A stretch of DNA of 64,000 bases. Origin: Bacteroidetes bacterium HGW-Bacteroidetes-5. GTDB taxonomy: Bacteria; Bacteroidota; Bacteroidia; Bacteroidales; UBA932. A program made the translations under genes and the position numbers. A model generated the notes under the pieces. That model was not told the DNA's origin and did no database searches. It saw nothing but the letters and a program-made list of their open reading frames with translations. Location of the stretch: positions 992,001 to 1,056,000 of the forward strand of contig PHDC01000001.1 in assembly GCA_002842515.1 (NCBI GenBank), written 5' to 3'. Positions within the stretch are counted from its first letter, which is position 1, and each line of letters starts with the position of its first letter. This document shows positions 1-25,894 of this stretch, piece after piece.

Positions 1-1131
1 AGAACCTGTGTTGAGGCTATGGCTGCAACACTCGGCCACACACAATCTCTTCACACAAATGCGCTTGACGAGGCTATTGCGCTGCCAACAGATTTCTCTG
101 CGCGTATTGCAAGAAATACACAGATATATATCCAGGAGGAGACTCAAATAACAAAATCTCTGGACCCTTGGGCAGGATCATACTTTGTTGAGAAGCTCAC
201 TGCAGAGATTGCAGAGAGAGCCTGGGGCCATATTGAGGAGGTAGAGAAGCTGGGCGGTATGGCAAAAGCCATCGAGACCGGAATCCCTAAACTTCGTATC
301 GAGGAGGCTGCTGCCCGCAAACAGGCAAGAATTGACTCACACCTGGATACAATTGTGGGTCTTAACAAATACCGTCTGGAGAAGGAAGATCCTTTAGAGA
401 TTCTGGATGTAGATAATACAAAGGTTCGTGAATCACAAATCGAAAGGCTTAAAGAGCTTCGCGCAAACCGTGACGAGGCCAAGGTTAAAGCTGCTCTGGC
501 TGCAATTACAAAAGCTGCAGCAGAAAAGAGTGGTAACTTACTGGAGCTTGCTATTGAGGCGGCAAAGGTGAGAGCAACCCTTGGAGAGATATCGGATGCC
601 TGCGAGGCTGTTGCCGGAAGATACAAAGCAATAATTCGAATGAATACAGGTGTTTACTCAAGTGAGGTTAAGAATGATGCCGAATTTGACAAAGCAAAAA
701 AACTGGTTGCAGAGTTTGCACAAAAAGAGGGACGCCAACCTCGGGTAATGATTGCCAAGCTTGGTCAGGACGGTCACGATCGCGGGGCCAAGGTTGTAGC
801 AACCGGGTATGCAGACTGCGGTTTTGATGTAGATATGGGGCCTCTGTTCCAGACACCGGAAGAGGCTGCCAAGCAGGCAGTAGAGAACGATGTTCACATT
901 GTTGGAGTATCTTCTCTGGCTGCCGGTCACAAAACCCTTGTTCCACAAATTATGAGCGAGCTAAAAAAACTGGGCCGCGAAGATATTATGGTAATTGTAG
1001 GGGGCGTTATCCCTGCACAGGACTACGATGCACTCTACAAAGCCGGTGCAGTGGCTATTTTCGGCCCCGGTACCACCATCGCCTCTGCCGCCATTAAACT
1101 GATGGAGTTGCTTTTGCAAAAATTTGAGTAA
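1..1131 (+). CDS. scpA: Methylmalonyl-CoA mutase large subunit, C-terminal part (5' end outside window)
   Basis: This is the adenosylcobalamin-dependent isomerase that interconverts succinyl-CoA and (R)-methylmalonyl-CoA in propionate/succinate metabolism, acting in the cytoplasm as a heterodimer with a small subunit. The reading frame is open from base 1, so the gene starts upstream. The visible part holds the end of the TIM-barrel substrate domain (the stretch reading [20 protein letters not shown] is highly typical) and the complete B12-binding domain, with the cobalt-ligand motif DGHDRG encoded at 769-786 and the GGVIPAQD and FGPGT elements near the C-terminus. The small subunit gene is presumably upstream. 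A hairpin terminator follows. Identification is secure; only the N-terminal half is missing because of the window edge. Confidence 0.95.
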
Positions 1132-1198
1132 CCTAACTACACAAGTCTTGAACTTGCAGTATTAAAGCATTATAATGAATGTTTTATGATTACAAAAC

Positions 1199-1242
1199 CC
1201 TTCGCACAGTGGTTAACATCCTATGTTGCGAAGGTTTTTTTT
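1199..1242. terminator. Bidirectional intrinsic terminator between mutase and RND operon
   Basis: An 8-bp perfect stem CCTTCGCA (1199-1206) / TGCGAAGG (1227-1234) is followed by eight T on the plus strand and preceded by four A. It sits between two convergent genes. The plus-strand T tract runs into the stop codon of the minus-strand adaptor gene, so it most clearly serves the mutase and probably also ends the RND operon. Confidence 0.8.
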
Positions 1243-2353
1243 ATTCAATTTGTATGTTATACACTCCATTAATCAAATATTTGTTTGATGGGAGTTGTTC
1301 TTTCAACTCAATGTAATTGTTAGCTTTACGGCCCGTGGTTACTTTTAGTCTTTTGAAATAATAAATTGAATCAATCTCTTTTTCATAAATTAAAATATAT
1401 GAGTCATTTTCAGTATTGATAATTGCTGCCTCTGGAGCCGATAAAACCGAATCTACGGCAGTAAAAACCTCGCCTTCGACAAATTGATTGTTTATAATAT
1501 TAATATCGTTAGGATTTGATATTACTGCATAACACTCTATAGATTTAGAATCACGCATTATGTTTTTCCCTACAGAGTTTATTATTGCTTTATATCTCTT
1601 AGACTTATTCCCGTTTAAGTAGAACTCCACTGTCTGCCCGGATTTTATTTTATCAATACTTTTCTCAAAGACAAAGAGTCTTAATTGAAAAGATCTGTGG
1701 TCAATAATATCTGCAATATTTTGTTGAGGTTCAACATATTGACCAATTAAAGTATTAACACTTGAAACAAATCCATTGATAGGAGATTTTATAGTATAAG
1801 AGGAATAAAATTCACCTTTTTCAATTTTCGAAACATCAAGCCCCATACTTTCAAGCGTGATTTTTAATGCTTTATACTTTGCATTTTCGGCATAATAACT
1901 ACTTTCGGCATAAGTAAACTCTTTCTGAGTTGCGATATTCTCATCAAACAAATCCTTAGCCCTTAGATAATCACTTTTCAACCTTGAAACAATAGCCGAC
2001 GACTCTGCAAAATCTTTTTGCTGGTTGATAAATTCATTTCCGGAAACTTCAAACATTGCTGATCCTTTGCTAATTATTTGTCCAGGGTTAGAATAAATTT
2101 TATCTATTATCCCAGGCAGAGGCAAACTGATTTGTGCTTGCCCGTTAACTGACGGAGTAATTGTACCTGTGAAATAAATTACATCGGCAAATGGTGAGAA
2201 CACAAGCTCTCCTATCACCATTTTTTCCGATTCAAATTGTAGTTTAGTAATTTCAATAAGTCCAGAATCGCTATTGTTGGTTTGTTGCGGGTTGCTTTTG
2301 CACGATAATATTATCACACTAAAAACGAATGCTTTAATTATTATTTTTTTCAT
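1241..2353 (-). CDS. RND efflux periplasmic adaptor lipoprotein (CusB/CzcB type)
   Basis: A 370-residue membrane-fusion protein that should bridge the RND pump and its outer-membrane channel. The N-terminus is a lipoprotein signal with lipobox residues LSC (Cys at residue 18) followed by a polar Asn/Ser-rich linker. The rest shows the HlyD-like order: a beta-barrel/lipoyl half-motif (QISLPLPGIIDKIYSNPGQ), a helical hairpin of about 70 residues rich in Lys/Glu/Ala, the second lipoyl half (INGFVSSVNTLIGQYVEPQQ) and a C-terminal membrane-proximal domain. It lies 13 nt downstream of the pump gene on the same strand, so the two are one operon. The substrate (copper/silver or zinc/cobalt/cadmium) cannot be told from the sequence; no Met- or His-rich metal-binding tail is visible. 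Confidence 0.88.
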   Translation of the reverse strand: MKKIIIKAFVFSVIILSCKSNPQQTNNSDSGLIEITKLQFESEKMVIGELVFSPFADVIYFTGTITPSVNGQAQISLPLPGIIDKIYSNPGQIISKGSAMFEVSGNEFINQQKDFAESSAIVSRLKSDYLRAKDLFDENIATQKEFTYAESSYYAENAKYKALKITLESMGLDVSKIEKGEFYSSYTIKSPINGFVSSVNTLIGQYVEPQQNIADIIDHRSFQLRLFVFEKSIDKIKSGQTVEFYLNGNKSKRYKAIINSVGKNIMRDSKSIECYAVISNPNDINIINNQFVEGEVFTAVDSVLSAPEAAIINTENDSYILIYEKEIDSIYYFKRLKVTTGRKANNYIELKEQLPSNKYLINGVYNIQIE

Positions 2354-2366
2354 ACTTTTTTACTGC

Positions 2367-5300
2367 TTACTGTGAAAAATAAATTAATTCTGAAGTTGTT
2401 TGATTGTAATTCAAAATATTAGCCAAGTAATCTAACTGAATCTGTATTGCAGTTTCGTAACTGGTTACAAACTGATAAAAGTCTATTTCGCCAAATTGAT
2501 ATGATTTTAATGCGGTTTTCATTATTTCATTCATTAAAGGCTCTCCCGATAATTCAAAATTATCAAGCAAAACTTTGAATTTATGATGATTACTCAATAA
2601 CAAGTTTAACTGATTATTTATTAATGTTAATTCGTTTTCTCTCAATAACCCTTTAGCGTTAGCAGAAAGTTTTGCTGCATTAACTCTGGCTTTTGAACCT
2701 CTATGAAACAAAGGGAGAGCAATACCCACTTGAAATCCGTGGTAATACTTACCATTTTCATATTTATTTGAACCTAAAAAATAGTTCGCGGAAAAATCCG
2801 GCAGCATTTTACTCTTTTCAACCCGAACCAGTGAATGAGAATATTCGTTCTCTTTTTTCAATAAATCAAAAATTGGCAAAGCATTTGGTGTCTCAATAAT
2901 TTCCGGCAAAATCTCTATTGCTATTGGAATAGTAAAATCAGTTTTTTTATTCATCAAAACTTTTAAACGATTATAATCATTATCAATATCAACTTTTAAG
3001 GCGTTTAGTTGAATTGAAATTTGGGTTTTTTTAGCCTTAATATTTAATACTTCGAGCTTATTGATATCTCCTATTTTTGCTCTCTTCTCAGAATTTGCAA
3101 TCAATACATCATAAAGACTATCCAAGGTATAATACAATTTTTGTTTATTCAATAGAAATTGAAAATTGAAATATGAAAAGGCGATATTCTTTTTAAGATT
3201 GTTTTTTTCAATATTCAGATTTGCTTCTGCTATTGAAACCTCAATTTGCCTTGACTTGCTTTCCGCCGAATAGAGTGTAGGAAAGCTAAAACTTTGCTCC
3301 AAGCTCCAAACGTTTAATGGATAACCATTTTCAGCGATATTATTTTGGTCTGTACCATAGCTAAAAATGGTTTTATCGGGAGCAAATGCTGTCTTTTTTA
3401 ACACTTTGCTCTCTTCTACTTTAAGCATATAAGCAGCAATTTGCTTATTATTCTGTAATGCTGTATCGATGGCTTCACTCAATTTCAAACCGGAATTCTG
3501 TCCAAATGAAGAAATTGCAGGTACACCAAGCAGAAATAATGTAATGAGGGTTTTGGAACGAATAAAACGTAATGGAAATAATTTTATCCCTTTGACATTA
3601 TAAAAAATTTCAAAAAGCAAAGGTAAGGCAATCATTGTCAACATAGTAGAAGTAATTAGCCCTCCAATTACTACCGTAGCAAGCGGGCGTTGAACTTCGG
3701 CTCCGGCACCGGTTGAAATAGCCATTGGCAAAAATCCCATTGCGGCAGCTCCTGCAGTGAGCAGTACCGGTCGCAAACGATTTTTTGTTCCGGTGAGTAT
3801 TAATTCACGAATATTTGTCATTCCCTGATGTTGTAACTCCTTCAAATGCTCAATAAGCACAATGCCGTTTAGCACTGCAATACCAAAGAGTGCAATAAAA
3901 CCAATACCTGCAGAGATGCTGAAAGGCATCCCCCTAATCCAAAGCAGAAATACTCCACCAACTGTTGCTAAAGGGATTGCAGTAAAAATCATAATTGCAT
4001 CTTTAAATGACTTGAATGCAAAATGTAGAAAAATAAATATTAAAATTAGAGCAACAGGTACTGCAATCATTAACCGGTTAGACGCATTTTGCAGATTCTC
4101 AAATTGTCCGCCATATTGAATATAATTGCCGGCTTTGAGTTTAATATTTTTATCAATTTTGTGTTGAATATCAACAATAACAGATTGTAAATCGCGGTTT
4201 CGTACATTAACACTTACCACTACCCTGCGATGAGCATTATCGTGCGATATTTTAGCAGGACCTTGGGTGTACTGAATTTCGGCAAGCTCACTTAGGGGTA
4301 TCATTTGACCGGTTGAAACAGGTACCTGAAGTTGACGAATATCGTCAATATCTGTTCTGTATTGGTGATCAAATCGCATCACCATATCAAATCTTTTTTC
4401 ACCCTCGAAAATTACGCCTGCTGTTTTCCCGCCAAACGCTGCAGATAAAAACGTGTTCAAAGTATTAACATCTACACCGTGATAAGCTATTTTACTTCTA
4501 TTGTAATTAACTTTTATTTGGGGCAATCCTGCGGTTTTTTCCATAATTACATCACTTGCACCTGGCACATCTTCAATAAGATTTTTAATCTCAAGCGCTT
4601 TTTGGTTGATGTAGTCGAGGTCTTCACCGAATATTTTAATGGCAATATCTGAACGGACACCTGTGATTAATTCATTAAAACGCATCTCAATGGGTTGTGT
4701 AAATTCGTATTCAACCCCGGGAATTACAGAAAGTGCCTCTTTGAATTTATCGGCTAACTCTTCTTTACTACTAGCAGAAGTCCACAATTTTTTAGGTTTG
4801 AGTTTAATAATCATATCAATCTCTTCCATTGACATAGGGTCTGTAGGTACTTCTGCGGCGCCTATTCTGGAGACAATCTGATCTACTTCTTCGGGAAATT
4901 TTTCTATTAAAATATTCTCCATCTTGGTAGTCATTTCAACGGTTTTAGTGAGGGAGGTTCCTGTTTTTAAAACAGGTTGTATGACAAAGTCTCCCTCATC
5001 AAGTGTTGGTACAAATTCACCACCAATTCGTGTAAACATTAACCCTGTAAGTAATAACGAAACAATAGCTGCACCAAGCACTAAGCGTTTATGACAGCAG
5101 GACCACTTAATTACCGGGGAATACAAATTATGGACCTTGTCCATAATCCAATCTGAAATATTTTTTTTCTTAGTTTTTGCAGGTTTTAAAAAAAGCGCCG
5201 AAGCTACAGGTAGCCAGGTAAGCCCTAATATCATTGCACCAATTATGGCGAAAGAGAAAGACAATGCCATTGGGCGAAACATCTTGCCTTCGACACCACT

Positions 5301-19739: not shown

Positions 19740-19810
19740 ATCTAAGAATTTTGAGTAGTTAGGGCGAATTTACCTATAAATATTATACCCGTTAGAAATT
19801 TGCAGATTAT

Positions 19811-19840
19811 TTGATTATTAATTTTCAATTTATATCTTTG
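19811..19840 (+). promoter_or_regulatory. Bacteroidota sigma-ABfr promoter of the methionine operon
   Basis: A -33 element TTG (19811-19813) is separated by exactly 19 nt from a -7 element TATCTTTG (19833-19840), matching the known TTG-N19-TAnnTTTG consensus. Transcription would start near 19847, about 11 nt before the leader ORF and about 240 nt before metY. Confidence 0.8.
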
Positions 19841-19857: not shown

Positions 19858-19980
19858 ATGAGTATAAACCCTAACATACAAAAGCTTACAAGCGGAACTG
19901 CTTTCGCTACGGGAATTATGTATACAGGGCTCATATCCAAACAGATGATGATGCGAATGCATCGGCAGATGCATAGATAG
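19858..19980 (+). CDS. Met-rich leader peptide of the methionine operon (40 residues)
   Basis: An ATG at 19858 opens a 40-codon frame ending in TAG at 19978-19980. The last 13 residues read KQMMMRMHRQMHR, five Met in eleven codons, just upstream of a GC-rich structured RNA and of metY-metX-thrA-asd. This is the layout of a leader-peptide attenuator: translation through a run of codons for the regulated amino acid senses charged tRNA-Met. The TSS predicted from the promoter leaves a short 5' leader. The peptide is too short for routine gene calls. The start codon and Met run are read directly; the regulatory role is inference. Confidence 0.72.
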   Translation: MSINPNIQKLTSGTAFATGIMYTGLISKQMMMRMHRQMHR

Positions 19981-20048
19981 TTTTCCGGGCCTTTCGAAGG
20001 TCCATTGGGTGTAAGCCCATAAATCCGATCCGGGCATTCACCGGAAAA
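19981..20048 (+). promoter_or_regulatory. Structured RNA leader (candidate attenuator) before metY
   Basis: Directly after the leader stop codon, TTTTCCGG (19981-19988) can pair perfectly with CCGGAAAA (20041-20048), enclosing a hairpin GGGCCTT (19987-19993) / AAGGTCC (19997-20003). An alternative arm GGTG-UAA-GCCC (20008-20018) pairs with GGGC-AUU-CACC (20032-20042), and CCGG (20030-20033) can also pair with CCGG (20041-20044). These are mutually exclusive in part, as expected of a switch. A ribosome parked at the leader stop would cover the 5' arm, while one stalled at the Met codons would leave it free. There is no T tract, so any termination would be Rho-dependent or of another kind. No SAM-riboswitch consensus is seen. 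Confidence 0.55.
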
Positions 20049-20089
20049 AGATCAAAAAAAATTATCAACTCCATTAATCATCATCTAAA

Positions 20090-21382
20090 ATGACGACAAA
20101 ACATTTTGATACCCTACAGGTACACGCAGGCCGCAATGTTACATCAAACGGGCCCTGTGCAACACCAATAGTACAGACATCTGCATTCCATTTCGACAGT
20201 GCGGCACAAGCAGCAAACCTATTCTCCCTAAAAGAGTTCGGAAACATCTACACACGACTCTCAAATCCAACTACCGATGTTTTGGAGCAGAGAGTTGCAG
20301 CCCTGGAGGGGGGTGCCGCGGCTGTGGCAACATCTTCGGGCCAGGCAGCTCAGTTTCTTGCCATCCAAAATATTGCTGGAGAGGGTGACAATATCATAAG
20401 CTCCTCTTCACTCTACGGCGGCACCTATAACCAATTTAAGATAAGCTTTGCAAGAGTTGGCATTGAGTGCCGCTTTGCACCCGTAAACGACCCGGCCGCC
20501 TTTGAAGCGCTAATTGACAACAGAACAAAGGCAATTTATATTGAGACAATCAGCAACTCCAACTTTTACATCCCGGATTTTGAAGCATTTGAAAAAATCA
20601 GCAAAAGACACGGCGTTCCAATTATTGTAGATAACACCTTCGGAGCAGGGGGATACTTATGCCGCCCTATTGAGTTGGGGGCAGCAGTTGTAACCCACTC
20701 AGCTACAAAGTGGATAGGCGGCCACGGCAACTCACTGGCGGGTGTTGTTGTAGATAGCGGGAAGTTCCGGTGGGATAACGGCAGGTTTCCTCAATTTACA
20801 ACCCGGTCTGAGTCCTATCACGGGATTAGCTTTTGGGAGAATTTCGGAGAGGGTTCGGCAACCGGAAACATCGCCTTTGCGGTGAGAGCCCGAACCGAGG
20901 GGCTTCGCGACTGGGGATGTTGTCTGAGTCCGTTCAATGCATTTCTCATCCTTACAGGGGTAGAGACACTCTCATTAAGAGTTGATAGAGTTGTAAATAA
21001 CGCTCTTGAGTTGGCAAAATGGCTTGCAGCTCACCCGAAAGTAGAGTCGGTTAACTACCCCGGGCTGGTTGATAACCCAAATCACGAAAGAGCTAAAAGG
21101 TATCTGACAAACGGGTTTGGAGGTGTACTCTCCTTTGCGATAAAGGGGAGCAAAGAGCAGGCCTCACAGCTTGTAAGCCGGTTGGATCTTATAAGCCATC
21201 TCACCAATGTGGGAGATAACAAAACCCTTATAAGCCATTCGGCATCAACTACACACTCCCAGATGACTCCGCAAGAGTTGTTAATTGCGGGAATCGGAGA
21301 GAGTTCACTGAGAGTATCTCTTGGCATTGAGCACATAGAGGATATAAAGAGAGATCTCCAAAACGCCTTTTCAACTATTTAG
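20090..21382 (+). CDS. metY: O-acetylhomoserine sulfhydrylase
   Basis: A 430-residue PLP enzyme of the Cys/Met metabolism family that condenses O-acetylhomoserine with sulfide to give homocysteine (direct sulfhydrylation). Family markers: LQVHAGRNVTSNGPCATPIVQTS near the N-terminus, SSSLYGGTYNQFK, VDNTFGAGGYLCRP, and the PLP lysine in HSATKWIGGHGN (Lys207). The length and the SLG(I)EHIEDI ending are typical of MetY rather than cystathionine gamma-synthase. It is the first structural gene of the operon, 109 nt after the leader-peptide stop, and is followed at 12 nt by the gene making its substrate. Confidence 0.95.
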   Translation: MTTKHFDTLQVHAGRNVTSNGPCATPIVQTSAFHFDSAAQAANLFSLKEFGNIYTRLSNPTTDVLEQRVAALEGGAAAVATSSGQAAQFLAIQNIAGEGDNIISSSSLYGGTYNQFKISFARVGIECRFAPVNDPAAFEALIDNRTKAIYIETISNSNFYIPDFEAFEKISKRHGVPIIVDNTFGAGGYLCRPIELGAAVVTHSATKWIGGHGNSLAGVVVDSGKFRWDNGRFPQFTTRSESYHGISFWENFGEGSATGNIAFAVRARTEGLRDWGCCLSPFNAFLILTGVETLSLRVDRVVNNALELAKWLAAHPKVESVNYPGLVDNPNHERAKRYLTNGFGGVLSFAIKGSKEQASQLVSRLDLISHLTNVGDNKTLISHSASTTHSQMTPQELLIAGIGESSLRVSLGIEHIEDIKRDLQNAFSTI

Positions 21383-21394
21383 GGAGGAGATAAG

Positions 21395-22456
21395 ATGAAG
21401 AGAGAGATTTTTAGATATTCGAAAGAGTTTGAGACGGAGAGCGGAGAGGTTCTCGACTCCCTTGAGATTTGCTATCATCATACGGCAAACTACTCTCCAG
21501 ATAAAAGAGTTATCTGGATATGCCACGCACTTACCGCCAACTCCAACCCTGAGGAGTGGTGGGATGGGCTTACAGGTCCCGGAAAACTGTTTGATACAGA
21601 GAAGTTCTATATAATCTGCGCAAATGTTCTTGGCTCTTGCTACGGCACTACCGGCCCAACATCGGTAGGCAATGATGGAAAAGAGTACCTGCTGCGCTTC
21701 CCACAAGTAACTATAAGAGACACTGTTAAAGCCCATAATATTTTAAGGGAGGCACTCGGCATAGAGCAGATAGATCTTATAACAGGAGGTTCAATAGGCG
21801 GTTTTCAGGCTCTGGAGTGGGCAGTAACCTACCCCCATATTGTTGATAAGCTGGTTCTTATTGCCTGTAATGCACGGGTCTCGCCCTGGGGTACGGCATT
21901 TAATGAATCACAAAGAGTTGCACTGTTTACCGACCCTACATTTGCAGAGCAGAGAGATAGAAACGGGGGCAAAAAAGGGCTTGAGACAGCCCGCTCAATA
22001 GCTCTGCTATCCTATCGTTCCTACGAAGGGTATGGAATATCCCAAAAAGAGCCGGATGAAGATTTTCTCTTTGCAAAAAGGGCAGGCAGTTACCAGCAGT
22101 ATCAAGGTGAAAAGCTTTCGGCCCGTTTTGATGCCTACTCCTATTTCACCTTGACCAGATCCATTGATAGTCACAATATCGGACGCAAAAGAGGTGGTGT
22201 TGTAAATGCTCTTTCCAAAATAGAGGCCAATACTCTGGTTGTAGGAATCGACAGCGATATACTCTTCCCTATTGAAGAGCAGCGCTTTATGGCAGATAAT
22301 ATCCCGAATGCATCTTTTAGGGAGATAAAATCACTCTTCGGGCACGATGGTTTTCTTTTGGAGTATAACCAGACCGCAGATGCTATATTAAACTCCTTCC
22401 CCGATCTATTCAATTCAATAACAACAGTAAATAAAAAAGTATATGCAGGTTCTTAA
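21395..22456 (+). CDS. metX: Homoserine O-acetyltransferase
   Basis: A 353-residue alpha/beta-hydrolase-fold acyltransferase that makes O-acetylhomoserine from homoserine and acetyl-CoA. Markers: CHALTANSNPEEWWDG, DTEKFYIICANVLGSCYGTTGP, the nucleophile elbow GGSIGGFQALEW (Ser133), the acid region VVGIDSDILFPI, and the catalytic His in FGHDGFLLEY. The family includes some O-succinyltransferases, but pairing with MetY supports acetyl. Its last 14 nt overlap the start of thrA in another frame, indicating translational coupling. Confidence 0.95.
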   Translation: MKREIFRYSKEFETESGEVLDSLEICYHHTANYSPDKRVIWICHALTANSNPEEWWDGLTGPGKLFDTEKFYIICANVLGSCYGTTGPTSVGNDGKEYLLRFPQVTIRDTVKAHNILREALGIEQIDLITGGSIGGFQALEWAVTYPHIVDKLVLIACNARVSPWGTAFNESQRVALFTDPTFAEQRDRNGGKKGLETARSIALLSYRSYEGYGISQKEPDEDFLFAKRAGSYQQYQGEKLSARFDAYSYFTLTRSIDSHNIGRKRGGVVNALSKIEANTLVVGIDSDILFPIEEQRFMADNIPNASFREIKSLFGHDGFLLEYNQTADAILNSFPDLFNSITTVNKKVYAGS

Positions 22457-24881
22457 GTTTGGCGGAAGCTCGGTTGCAAACGCCGCTAACATAATGAAGG
22501 TGACTACAATTGTTGCCGATGCCGTAAAAAAAGACAGGACAATTTTGGTCTGTTCGGCAATAGGGGGGTGTACAGATAAGCTGATACGGGCAGCCACCCT
22601 GGCAGCTGAGAGAGATTCCCGGTACAAAGAGATAGTTGAATCGCTGGTGAGTGCCCATAGTAACATTATTGGTGAGCTGATTCCGGAAGATTACAGAGTA
22701 CAGATCAACTCCCGATGCTGCAATCTCTTTGACTCCCTCAAAGGTCTGCTGGAGGGAGTCTCTCTTACCGGAGAGCTGACACAGGGCTCTTGCGATTTGG
22801 CCGTAAGTTACGGAGAGCTGCTCTCTACATCAATAATATCTGCAAAGCTAAACTCCCTCGGGATAAACAACATTTGGACAGACTCCCGTGAGCTTATAAA
22901 GACCATCTGCCACAATTCCCAAAACATCGTAGATATTGAATCAACAAACAAAAACATTGTCCGTTTTCTGAATGCAAACGGCACCAAGTTGTGGGTTGTT
23001 CCGGGATTCATAGCAAGCGACCACAAAGGACGAACAACAACCTTGGGAAGAGGAGGTTCGGACTACACTGCATCTCTCTTTTCGGCAGCATCGGGAGCCA
23101 GGGTACTGGAGATATGGACAGATGTAAACGGGATGATGACCGCAGACCCGAGAGTTGTTCCAGATGCCAAAACAATAGAGAACATCTCATACAAAGAGGC
23201 TCTTGAACTATCTCACTTTGGGGCTAAGGTGGTCTACCCCCCTACAATCCAACCGGCAGTTGCAGGAGGTATTCCGATTGTAGTAAAAAACACATTCGAC
23301 CCCAATGGTGCCTCAACAGTTATTGAGAACCGGCCGCCCGACAGCAGGGGAAAGATTCGCGGCATATCTGGGAGTAACAAAATAGCTCTGCTCTCTCTCG
23401 AGGGGAGCGGAATGGTTGGTATTCCCGGCTACTCTGCCCGATTGTTCACCGCTCTTGCAAACGCCAAGGTGAATATTGTTCTCATAACACAGGCCTCTTC
23501 ACTTCACACAATGTGCGTTGCAATTGAAGAGTCTGCAGCCGAAACTGCAGGGAATGCGGTAGATGAGACATTTGCATACGAAATATCGCTTTCAAAGGTA
23601 GAACCGGTTAAAGTTGAGCGGGGGTATGCAATTATATCTCTTGTTGGAGATGATATGAAAAACCAGGCAGGTACAAGCGGGAAGATGTTCGATGCGCTTG
23701 GAAGGGCAGGTATCAATATCAGAGCAATTGCTCAGGGATCATCTGAGAAGAACATATCTGCAATTGTAAAGGGAGAGGATTCCGACGATGCAGTGAGGGT
23801 GGTTCACCAAGAGTTTTTCGGATTCAAACGGGAGCGGGTTAACCTCTTTATTGCAGGTTTTGGAAATGTTGGAAAATCGCTTGTTAACCTCATAGAACAG
23901 ACCAGAAAAAACATTGCCGGGGAGTGGGGTAAAGATATTGTGGTCACCGGTATCTGCAACAGCTCAAGATCCGTTACAGATAAAGAGGGTATCGATCTCT
24001 CCCGTGCCGGAGAGTTGCTCCAAGCAGGAAAATTAACAGATATTACCGGCTTTGTGAGAGAGATATCTGCCCTCTCTCTGGGCAACTCCATTTTTGCAGA
24101 TTGCACTGCTCAAAGCGTTGTAGCTATGCAGTATGCCGATATTCTGGAAGAGGGTATATCTGTTGTAACCTGTAATAAGATAGCGCTCTCTTCATCAATG
24201 GAGTACTGGGATCAACTCAAAAGGGTGGCCCTGGACAGAAGGGTATCACTTCTATATGAGACATCTGCAGGGGCAGCCCTTCCGGTGATTGAGACCATCT
24301 CAAGGCTAAAGGTGAGCGGAGAGAAGATTCTTTCGGTTGAGGCGATACTTTCGGGAACTCTAAACTATCTTTACAGCAGTTATGACGGCTCCAAAAGTTT
24401 TGCTTCGCTCATAAAGGAGGCCAAAGAGGCCGGATATACCGAACCCGATCCAAGGGTAGATCTTTCGGGAACCGATGTGTTGAGGAAGTGTACAATCATA
24501 GCCAGAGAGTGCGGCTTCCGTGCCGAGCAAAAGGATGTAGAGATTGAACCTCTTGTAGATAAAGCCCTCTTTTCGGGAACCCTTGCAGATTTCTACACCA
24601 AAGTAGCAGAGTGGGAACCTAAGTTCCTGCAGAGATACAATGAGGCAGCCGAAAAGGGCGAGAGATTAAGATATGTTGCATCCATTGAGCAGGGGCAATA
24701 CAGAGTAGGATTGAGGTCGTTACCTACCAACCACCCGCTCTACAACATCTCGGGGACAAATAACTCAGTAATGATAACAACCTCAAACTACCCGGCGGGG
24801 GTTGTAATCTCGGGAGCTGGTGCAGGTGCACGGGTTACGGCGGGTGGAGTATTGAATGACATACTTAAAGTGGGCATATAA
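22443..24881 (+). CDS. thrA: Bifunctional aspartate kinase / homoserine dehydrogenase
   Basis: An 812-residue fused enzyme covering the first and third steps of the aspartate pathway. Aspartate kinase occupies about 1-290 (KFGGSSVANA at the start; TLGRGGSDYTASLF near 200), a pair of ACT regulatory domains about 305-460 (LLSLEGSGMVGIPGYSARLF; IISLVGDDMKNQAGTSGKMF), and homoserine dehydrogenase about 465-812 (LFIAGFGNVGKSLVN as the NAD(P)-binding loop, then GTLNYLYSSYDGS and EPDPRVDLSGTDVLRK). It lies between metX and asd in one operon, so homoserine supply is tied here to methionine rather than threonine synthesis. Confidence 0.95.
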   Translation: MQVLKFGGSSVANAANIMKVTTIVADAVKKDRTILVCSAIGGCTDKLIRAATLAAERDSRYKEIVESLVSAHSNIIGELIPEDYRVQINSRCCNLFDSLKGLLEGVSLTGELTQGSCDLAVSYGELLSTSIISAKLNSLGINNIWTDSRELIKTICHNSQNIVDIESTNKNIVRFLNANGTKLWVVPGFIASDHKGRTTTLGRGGSDYTASLFSAASGARVLEIWTDVNGMMTADPRVVPDAKTIENISYKEALELSHFGAKVVYPPTIQPAVAGGIPIVVKNTFDPNGASTVIENRPPDSRGKIRGISGSNKIALLSLEGSGMVGIPGYSARLFTALANAKVNIVLITQASSLHTMCVAIEESAAETAGNAVDETFAYEISLSKVEPVKVERGYAIISLVGDDMKNQAGTSGKMFDALGRAGINIRAIAQGSSEKNISAIVKGEDSDDAVRVVHQEFFGFKRERVNLFIAGFGNVGKSLVNLIEQTRKNIAGEWGKDIVVTGICNSSRSVTDKEGIDLSRAGELLQAGKLTDITGFVREISALSLGNSIFADCTAQSVVAMQYADILEEGISVVTCNKIALSSSMEYWDQLKRVALDRRVSLLYETSAGAALPVIETISRLKVSGEKILSVEAILSGTLNYLYSSYDGSKSFASLIKEAKEAGYTEPDPRVDLSGTDVLRKCTIIARECGFRAEQKDVEIEPLVDKALFSGTLADFYTKVAEWEPKFLQRYNEAAEKGERLRYVASIEQGQYRVGLRSLPTNHPLYNISGTNNSVMITTSNYPAGVVISGAGAGARVTAGGVLNDILKVGI

Positions 24882-24910: not shown

Positions 24911-25894
24911 ATGAAAATTGCAGTAGTGGGTGCTACCGGGCTGGTAGGCACCAAGATGATTGAGGTTTTGCAGGAGCGAAATTTCCCGGTAACAGAGTTT
25001 ATTCCTGTCGCATCGTCTAAATCGGCAGGTAAAAAAATAAAATTCGCAGGTAAAGAGTGGATAGTTAAGACGCCCGAAGAGGCAGTTGAAATGAGACCAG
25101 ATATTGCTCTCTTCTCTGCTGGCTCTGATATCTCCGGGGAGTGGGCTCCCAAATTTGCGGCTGTAGGGTGCAGGGTGGTTGACAACTCATCCCGCTGGAG
25201 AATGGACCCAAAAGTAAAACTTATTGTGCCGGAGATAAACGGCGATACTATAACAAAAGAGGATATGATTATCGCAAATCCCAACTGCTCTACCATTCAG
25301 ATGGTGGTGGCACTCAATCTTCTTCACAGAAAATACAAATTAAAAAGAGTTGTTGTCTCTACATATCAGTCTGTTACTGGAAGCGGCATTAAAGGGATTA
25401 ACCAGTTGCGGAGTGAACGCGGGGAGCCGGTAACAGGGGCCGTAGATAGAGCTTATACCCACCCTATTGATATGAATCTGATTCCCCAGATAGACCTCTT
25501 TACAGAGAACGGCTACACAAAAGAGGAGATGAAGATGGTAAACGAAACCCGAAAAATATTTGCAGATAACACCATTGCAATAAGTGCTACCACAGTAAGG
25601 GTTCCGGTAGAGGGGGGACACTCGGAGAGTATAAATGCAGAGTTTCACGAAGAGTTTCTCATAGAGGATATTTTTGCTATATTGCGCAAAACTCCCGGAG
25701 CAATATTTATGGATAACTCAAATAACCCACCCTACCCTATGCCCATTTATGCATATGGTAAAGATGAAGTTTTTGTGGGGCGTGTGAGAGAAGATCTCTT
25801 TTGCAAAAAAGCTGTAAATATGTGGGTTGTTGCAGATAACTTAAGAAAAGGGGCTGCAACAAATGCCGTTCAAATAGCAGAACTGCTCTGGTGA
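24911..25894 (+). CDS. asd: Aspartate-semialdehyde dehydrogenase
   Basis: A 327-residue NADP-dependent dehydrogenase that reduces aspartyl phosphate to aspartate semialdehyde, the step between the two activities of the upstream ThrA. The nucleotide-binding loop [16 protein letters not shown] is at residues 4-19, the catalytic cysteine is Cys126 in NPNCSTIQM, and later markers are [25 protein letters not shown] and VRVP. It follows thrA by 29 nt and completes a set from aspartate to homocysteine with metY, metX and thrA. Confidence 0.95.

Follow-up and report, generated by a model that had tools for sequence, protein, structure and literature searches.

Here we report a methionine-rich leader open reading frame (ORF) upstream of metY in Bacteroidetes bacterium HGW-Bacteroidetes-5, which is probably a methionine-responsive leader-peptide attenuator acting on translation initiation. 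Comparison with related genomes gives good support to the existence of the leader and to its connection with methionine, and we hold both to be very likely. That it operates as a translational switch through a long-range pairing, here called P0, in the lineage of the window (the whole stretch of 64,000 nucleotides that was analysed) is a likely reading of the sequence comparisons and of folding models. The aligned sequences display the ORF and its conservation, a core hairpin, a second hairpin designated C, and an AUG run that coevolves with the start region of metY, each of which is described below.

A first-pass annotation of this DNA had drawn attention to a 40-codon ORF behind a recognisable promoter, and both stand as it described them:
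19810..19840, forward strand: predicted sigma-A type Bacteroidota promoter (TTTG, 19 nt, TATCTTTG)
19858..19980, forward strand: leader ORF of 40 codons plus TAG, with the Met-rich end MMMRMHRQMHR (supported by translation, conservation and a chance control)
The ORF translates to MSINPNIQKLTSGTAFATGIMYTGLISKQMMMRMHRQMHR followed by a stop, giving 40 sense codons, and AUG accounts for five of the last 11 (at 19945, 19948, 19951, 19957 and 19969), as had been claimed. The promoter is a Bacteroidota-type match, with TTTG at 19810-19813 and, after 19 nt, TATCTTTG at 19833-19840 (predicted transcription start). Any window holds many short ORFs, 1567 of 8-60 codons over the six frames of this one, so that a chance ORF has to be considered; yet the leader is the sole one among them whose last 11 codons include five or more Met, and 30 first-order Markov windows yielded none in 65228 such ORFs. 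Of the 59 leaders analysed, 54 have a TAnnTTTG box with an in-frame start (ATG or GTG) 4-40 nt beyond it (median 10.5), from which the frame stays open to the core (the exceptions being L057, L080, L059, L074 and L084), against 4 of 590 shuffled upstream sequences. These Markov and shuffle controls, with conservation in relatives arguing strongly in the same direction, lead us to reject a chance ORF, a reading that we consider scarcely credible. As the start lies no more than 10 nt from the box in 27 of the 54 leaders, those 27 are probably translated leaderless. In the same 54 leaders the +1 frame is closed in 51 and the +2 frame in 14, the latter being open up to the core in the other 40; an open frame would on its own be weak evidence for coding.

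The genes claimed to follow the leader, metY, metX, thrA and asd, are recognised by NCBIfam and Pfam, with metX scoring below the NCBIfam cut-off:
20090..21382, forward strand: metY, O-acetylhomoserine sulfhydrylase, the first gene under the proposed control (TIGR01326, 595 bits, cut-off 495; Pfam)
21395..22456, forward strand: metX, homoserine O-acetyltransferase-like (best match TIGR01392, 323 bits, under the cut-off of 500; Pfam)
22443..24881, forward strand: thrA-type aspartokinase/homoserine dehydrogenase (NF006959, 897 bits; Pfam)
24911..25894, forward strand: asd, aspartate-semialdehyde dehydrogenase (NF011456, 427 bits; Pfam)
From the stop codon of the leader to the metY AUG at 20090 is 109 nt, and the corresponding distance ranges from 72 to 390 nt across 57 leaders. 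These figures bear on the idea that the leader merely raises metY translation through ribosome reinitiation and has no regulatory role. PMC4833913 reports reinitiation as a proposed function of leader genes and gives, for Bacteroidetes, a peak at 11-14 bp from the structural gene; the stop-to-start distances found here lead us to reject short-distance reinitiation, and the idea would in addition leave the Met codons without a reason, which makes it very improbable.

The leader is conserved across many Bacteroidales, most of them uncultured. A metY search covered 199 genomes of the window's family, 144 of which matched. The window's genus contributed 16 matches besides its own genome, of which 15 were fetched and one weak match (G010) was left out; at least three further genomes of the genus gave no metY match. 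According to the first-pass annotation, a genuine leader should keep its short ORF and AUG cluster among relatives while its other codons vary, and an alignment of the relatives agrees on both counts: all 15 of the same-genus metY loci that were fetched retain ORF and cluster, each with MRMHR, a short tail and the core pattern, and the codons outside the cluster differ. Those before the ...MRMHR core differ synonymously 33 times and nonsynonymously 81 times (0.289 observed against 0.222 expected, over 16 close pairs that are not all independent, some sharing a member). This part of the peptide seems almost free to drift, as a leader peptide would be, with start, frame and core staying in place. 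An ORF rich in codons for the product of the pathway, lying before the operon and keeping its codon cluster and frame while other codons drift, is what is generally expected of a leader attenuator and is what was found here.

Beyond the genus, the core leader occurs in five loci fetched from the rest of the family (L016, L023, L026, L028 and L029), and no leader was found in the fetched metY loci of L030 and L031, also from other genera. Among 40 further metY upstream regions of the family, each of 260 nt, the core was present in 16, the form MIMQMHR in one and a Met-rich variant, MRMRRMC, in two, and 21 had none of these. Upstream of metY in L136 and L140, MRMRRMC stands with a different possible hairpin, the Met codons being kept and the core sequence lost. 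In most of L146-L159, the sequence upstream of metY resembles, by eye, the end of another pathway gene, and on that visual impression metY would be operon-internal there. The contig of one of them, L157 (193449 bases), is exactly as long as the contig of L093, in which the leader precedes metX.

A scan of the GTDB species collection with the pattern ATGCGNATGCATCN{3,4}AGATGC returned 83 stretches, 80 of which are listed as loci; since the pattern fixes the core sequence, the metY-based set is the one to consult on how well the core is conserved. In 58 of the 80, metY (43) or metX (15) comes next (56 under a stricter next-gene rule). These 58 are labelled Bacteroidales, Bacteroidetes or Bacteroidia, except that L053 is labelled uncultured bacterium only, and they include Candidatus Cryptobacteroides, Egerieousia and metagenome-assembled genomes (MAGs) labelled Prevotellaceae or Rikenellaceae. 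Because the same leader stands before metX in 15 of the 58 loci, it is tied to the pathway and not to one gene. The remaining 22 matches adjoin neither gene. Sixteen in other phyla and one in Chitinophaga look like chance, in three (L044, L094 and L100) the sequence ends before the next gene, and the other two are L085 and L086. Near position 3248 of L085, from a Prevotellaceae MAG, an MRMHR core lies within a 63-codon ORF, with neither metY nor metX adjoining. When 395 genomes of the phylum were searched with a 14-base core pattern, six matches were obtained, namely the window and five sites without the rest of the element.

The core has the form AUG CGN AUG CAU C, with the hairpin AUGCAUC-N4/5-GAUGCAU, and in the long form of the leader, the window's type, it is followed by hairpins C and D and then by the metY start:
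19957..19974, forward strand: core hairpin B, AUGCAUC/GAUGCAU (19957-19963 with 19968-19974; aligned leaders)
19987..20003, forward strand: hairpin C (19987-19993 with 19997-20003; both sides changed in four of seven pairs)
20006..20019, forward strand: hairpin D (20006-20010 with 20015-20019; fold)
The inner 5 bp of hairpin B are invariant in 20 aligned leaders, 17 of them found with the pattern that fixes those bases; the metY-based set, which is free of this bias, has the core in 15 of 15. Its outer two pairs are broken in five and six of 18 distinct rows. A shorter alternative hairpin, AUGC-GAAU-GCAU, has one arm in common with hairpin B; as its other arm holds a Met codon, all of these arms would be pinned. 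The ORF of the window's type runs through hairpin B, and most short-form leaders end within its loop (MRMHR and stop). In hairpin C the innermost pair is unpaired in 10 of 18 distinct rows, and in hairpin D the closing pair changes, by eye, from U-A to C-G in L096 and L105. Over hairpins B, C and D together, where the pair counts of D are unreliable because part of alignment A1 has it displaced by one column, five pairs (four in C) and 13 cells have changed on both sides. The covariation score is 0.139; shuffles gave 0.075, with none of 500 reaching 0.139, and sliding the structure gave 0.067 at most. Further pair types, one of five covariation measures, did not rise above the shuffles (254 of 500), and RNAalifold alone proposed 13 pairs, three of them with double changes.

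The nearly invariant core, the covarying hairpin C and a 5' region that folds better than shuffles (z -3.9) are also what might be seen if the element were a structured RNA, either a riboswitch or a protein-binding site, in which hairpins B, C and D are the sensor and the ORF is incidental. Searches for known elements speak against this. Rfam gave nothing in the window at gathering score, there being two weak snoRNA matches only (E 0.56 and 7.9), and a known Rfam element in the window is accordingly rejected, as is a SAM-I riboswitch (RF00162), for which no covariance model match was obtained in the window or in the genome (92.85% complete), against matches in three of 14 control genomes. No T-box in the window scored above the gathering threshold. 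The SAM-II model (RF00521) matched neither the window nor the genome, nor any control genome, and is uninformative here. Promoter, in-frame start and core coincide far more often than in shuffles (the 54 of 59 leaders above), Met-rich ORFs persist in L136 and L140 despite the lost core sequence, and unrelated Met/Cys-rich ORFs precede metY in other families. On this evidence we regard a structured RNA with an incidental ORF as improbable.

The evidence for an effect on metY itself comes from a pairing between the leader and the start region of the gene:
19943..19952, forward strand: AGATGATGAT, the Met-codon run, 5' arm of P0 (pairs with 20077-20086, -13.6 kcal/mol)
20077..20086, forward strand: ATCATCATCT, 3' arm of P0, ending 3 nt before the metY start codon
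All 10 pairs of P0 are present in the minimum-energy fold of the window's leader. In 20 long-form leaders the pairing of each Met cluster with its own start region averages -12.0 kcal/mol, and none of 5000 permutations of the partners was as low. The result held after dereplication, with 0 of 5000 for 14 leaders (3 of 5000 with another seed) and 4 of 5000 for 12 leaders. For these structure tests L043 and L089, in which no ATG was found, were left out, L007 and L008 were added, and duplicates from the metY search were used once. A scan along the 12 leaders placed the signal at the Met cluster (8 of 5000, segment -9..+12), with a weak signal where the cluster is partly covered (190 of 5000, -21..0) and none in the other seven segments (546 to 4856 of 5000); a long-form test of the segment ending before the core (-45..0) likewise gave 771 of 5000. 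Some arms have changed and still match, as in L045 (GGUUAUG/CAUAACC) and L096 (GGAUGAUGAUGAUG/CAUCAUUAUUAUCC), and the pairing is weak in four of the 20 leaders (L073, L049, L104 and L114). Taken at the level of sequence, the window's group shows a clear signal of coevolution between the Met-codon run and the start region of metY. The signal is absent from short-form leaders, both in 37 leaders (4048 of 5000) and, with a wider leader segment, in 23 dereplicated leaders of the metY short form (4742 of 5000), and P0 is therefore rejected as the mechanism of the whole leader family. Upstream of metX, leader codons near 7-11 may pair separately with the metX start codon, as CAUAUCUGU/ACAGAUAUG in L062, L093 and L091 and, changed and matching, as CAUAUUUGUUGU/ACAACAGAUAUG in L058; over the group of 10 leaders 231 of 5000 permutations were as good, so that this pairing is suggestive but weak.

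We propose that a ribosome would translate the leader and that its progress would depend on charged elongator Met-tRNA, which we infer to be the species sensed. Were this plentiful, the ribosome would pass the AUG run and end at the stop codon some 25-35 nt later, leaving the run free to pair with AUCAUCAUCU, which immediately precedes the metY start codon, and P0 would then block initiation so that metY is closed. Were it scarce, the ribosome would stall on the AUG run and cover it, and the metY start would stay open. A leader that pairs with the start region, which a stalled ribosome then frees, is the mark of translational attenuators, and prediction and coevolution both give such an arrangement here. 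Folding with ribosome footprints imposed as constraints is consistent with it, in that the computed alternative RNA structures depend on the position of the ribosome. For the window's leader, the energy needed to open the start region was 8.4 kcal/mol with the leader free, 4.3 with a ribosome stalled and 8.7 with a ribosome at the stop; the corresponding means were 8.4, 5.2 (stalled on the core AUG) and 8.3 kcal/mol. The stall value lay below the stop value by more than 1 kcal/mol in 16 of 22 long-form leaders, the difference did not exceed 1 kcal/mol in the other six, and the order was reversed in none. With its own start region a leader gave a stop-minus-stall difference of 4.0 (above 1 in 10 of 12), against 2.0 with foreign start regions (33 of 60), so that half of the modelled opening effect is seen with foreign start regions as well, and part of it is not specific. 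The 37 short-form leaders show a weak trend in stall versus stop (9 against 5). The model ignores co-transcriptional kinetics, and its ribosome footprint is a convention. One consideration counts against an attenuator of this kind, namely that a shortage of methionine would be expected to slow initiation on the leader as well.

The same Met codons could instead govern transcription, through an unrecognised intrinsic terminator or Rho-dependent termination within the 109 nt between leader and gene, relieved by a ribosome stalled on these codons, and with the core hairpin acting as an RNA polymerase pause hairpin. Pause hairpins of this type are present in the trp and his leaders, and the placing of the stop codon within the loop of hairpin B in most short-form leaders recalls trpL, whose stop codon lies in a hairpin loop. 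Terminator-like hairpins below -6 kcal/mol occur in 17 of 37 short-form leaders (including L063, L109, L055 and L059), against 11 of 185 shuffles, and several of these are hairpin B itself followed by U. A U-rich stretch follows the core hairpin in L058, L060, L087, L092, L095 and L097, where the core hairpin may itself be a terminator or pause hairpin. In another genus of the family (g19), Met/Cys leaders lie upstream of metY in L018, L020, L021, L022, L024, L025 and L027, with sequences such as ...MAMCMCCMCC... and ...MIAMCMCFCLC..., and 7 of 7 have strong terminator hairpins, of -12 to -19 kcal/mol with a U-tract. By eye, a GCCGGA near the end of several g19 ORFs can pair with the 5' arm of the terminator, in the classic attenuator layout. 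Against a transcriptional output in the window's own lineage, no terminator hairpin stands before the gene in the window or in 20 of the other 21 long-form leaders (1 of 22, with 5 of 110 in shuffles), the terminator finder having found none in the window's leader, for which an intrinsic terminator is rejected; nor would termination explain the coevolution of P0 with the start region. We therefore consider a transcriptional output unlikely there, while granting it some weight. The first-pass annotation had seen in the leader a hallmark of ribosome-mediated attenuation after the manner of the his, thr and trp operons; comparison upholds a Met-leader attenuator, and its output looks like metY translation initiation, not a transcription terminator.

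Leaders of related composition are found more widely. A class-wide metY search matched 148 genomes, of which the best 29 loci were fetched; upstream of metY, 14 of the 29 have a short ORF in which a stretch of 10 codons includes five or more Met/Cys, as against one of 29 for the reverse strand and none of 580 shuffles. These loci belong to other families (L162, L164, L167-L170, L172-L175, L177, L178, L183 and L184), and their ORFs are unrelated to the window's leader. A second, very Met/Cys-rich short ORF lies upstream of the first in L172 (MHRMHHCMCMCCMCM, -390 to -342 from metY) and in L175 (MHAMCMHMCCCMCS, -370 to -325). The 14 loci point to sulfur amino acid attenuation being widespread among Bacteroidia. 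As a tentative proposal, which we put at somewhat less than even, the window's leader would represent an attenuator class in which the tandem control codons themselves act as antisense RNA that closes off the start region of the first biosynthetic gene, with metY translation reporting directly whether a starved ribosome occupies them; it would form part of a wider set of Met/Cys-rich leaders before metY in Bacteroidia, whose coding sensor is retained from genus to genus and whose output module is swapped (start-region lock, start-codon lock or terminator).

The trp, his and thr leader peptides are transcription attenuators. As in those systems, a short ORF rich in the amino acid of the pathway precedes the biosynthetic operon, with hairpins around the control codons; unlike them, the window's leader showed no terminator hairpin with U-tract, and its own control codons pair with the start region of the structural gene. 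In ermC, a ribosome held up in the leader frees the start region of the next gene. The release proposed here is of the same kind, whereas the cause in ermC is an antibiotic or a general slowdown without amino-acid specificity, and for the window's leader we propose scarcity of a single amino acid. Polycysteine leaderless short ORFs of mycobacteria were reportedly described by Canestrari et al. in 2020. They are said in a review (PMC9031893) to regulate downstream translation via ribosome speed, and are likewise amino-acid-specific leaders, theirs being for cysteine and in Actinobacteria. Both leader-peptide systems and ermC-type translational attenuation are mentioned in PMC2965389.

Methionine leaders had been called uncommon in the first-pass annotation, a statement that needs qualifying, as one has already been predicted in Streptomyces lividans, where metL precedes metNIQ, ends in CMCRRMCAF and is said to lack a typical Rho-independent terminator (PMC8079986). 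From what that source describes, metL resembles the window's leader in containing Met, in standing before a methionine gene set and in the missing terminator, and differs in belonging to another phylum, in preceding a transporter operon and in its mixed Cys/Met codons. Leader ORFs are on record from the same phylum as well, with leader-peptide attenuation noted before amino-acid operons in Flavobacterium psychrophilum (PMC9723704, which also describes Bacteroidota as lacking Shine-Dalgarno sequences) and leader-like sORFs in Bacteroides thetaiotaomicron (PMC7366714); the passages concerned name no methionine leader.

We found no earlier account of the window's leader in the open-access papers searched. 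To our knowledge, how Bacteroidota adjust methionine synthesis is poorly known, and the leader offers a concrete, testable switch common to many species. It would add methionine, the start codon's own amino acid, to the better documented cases of leader-peptide sensing, and it would show sensor codons doubling as a regulatory antisense strand.
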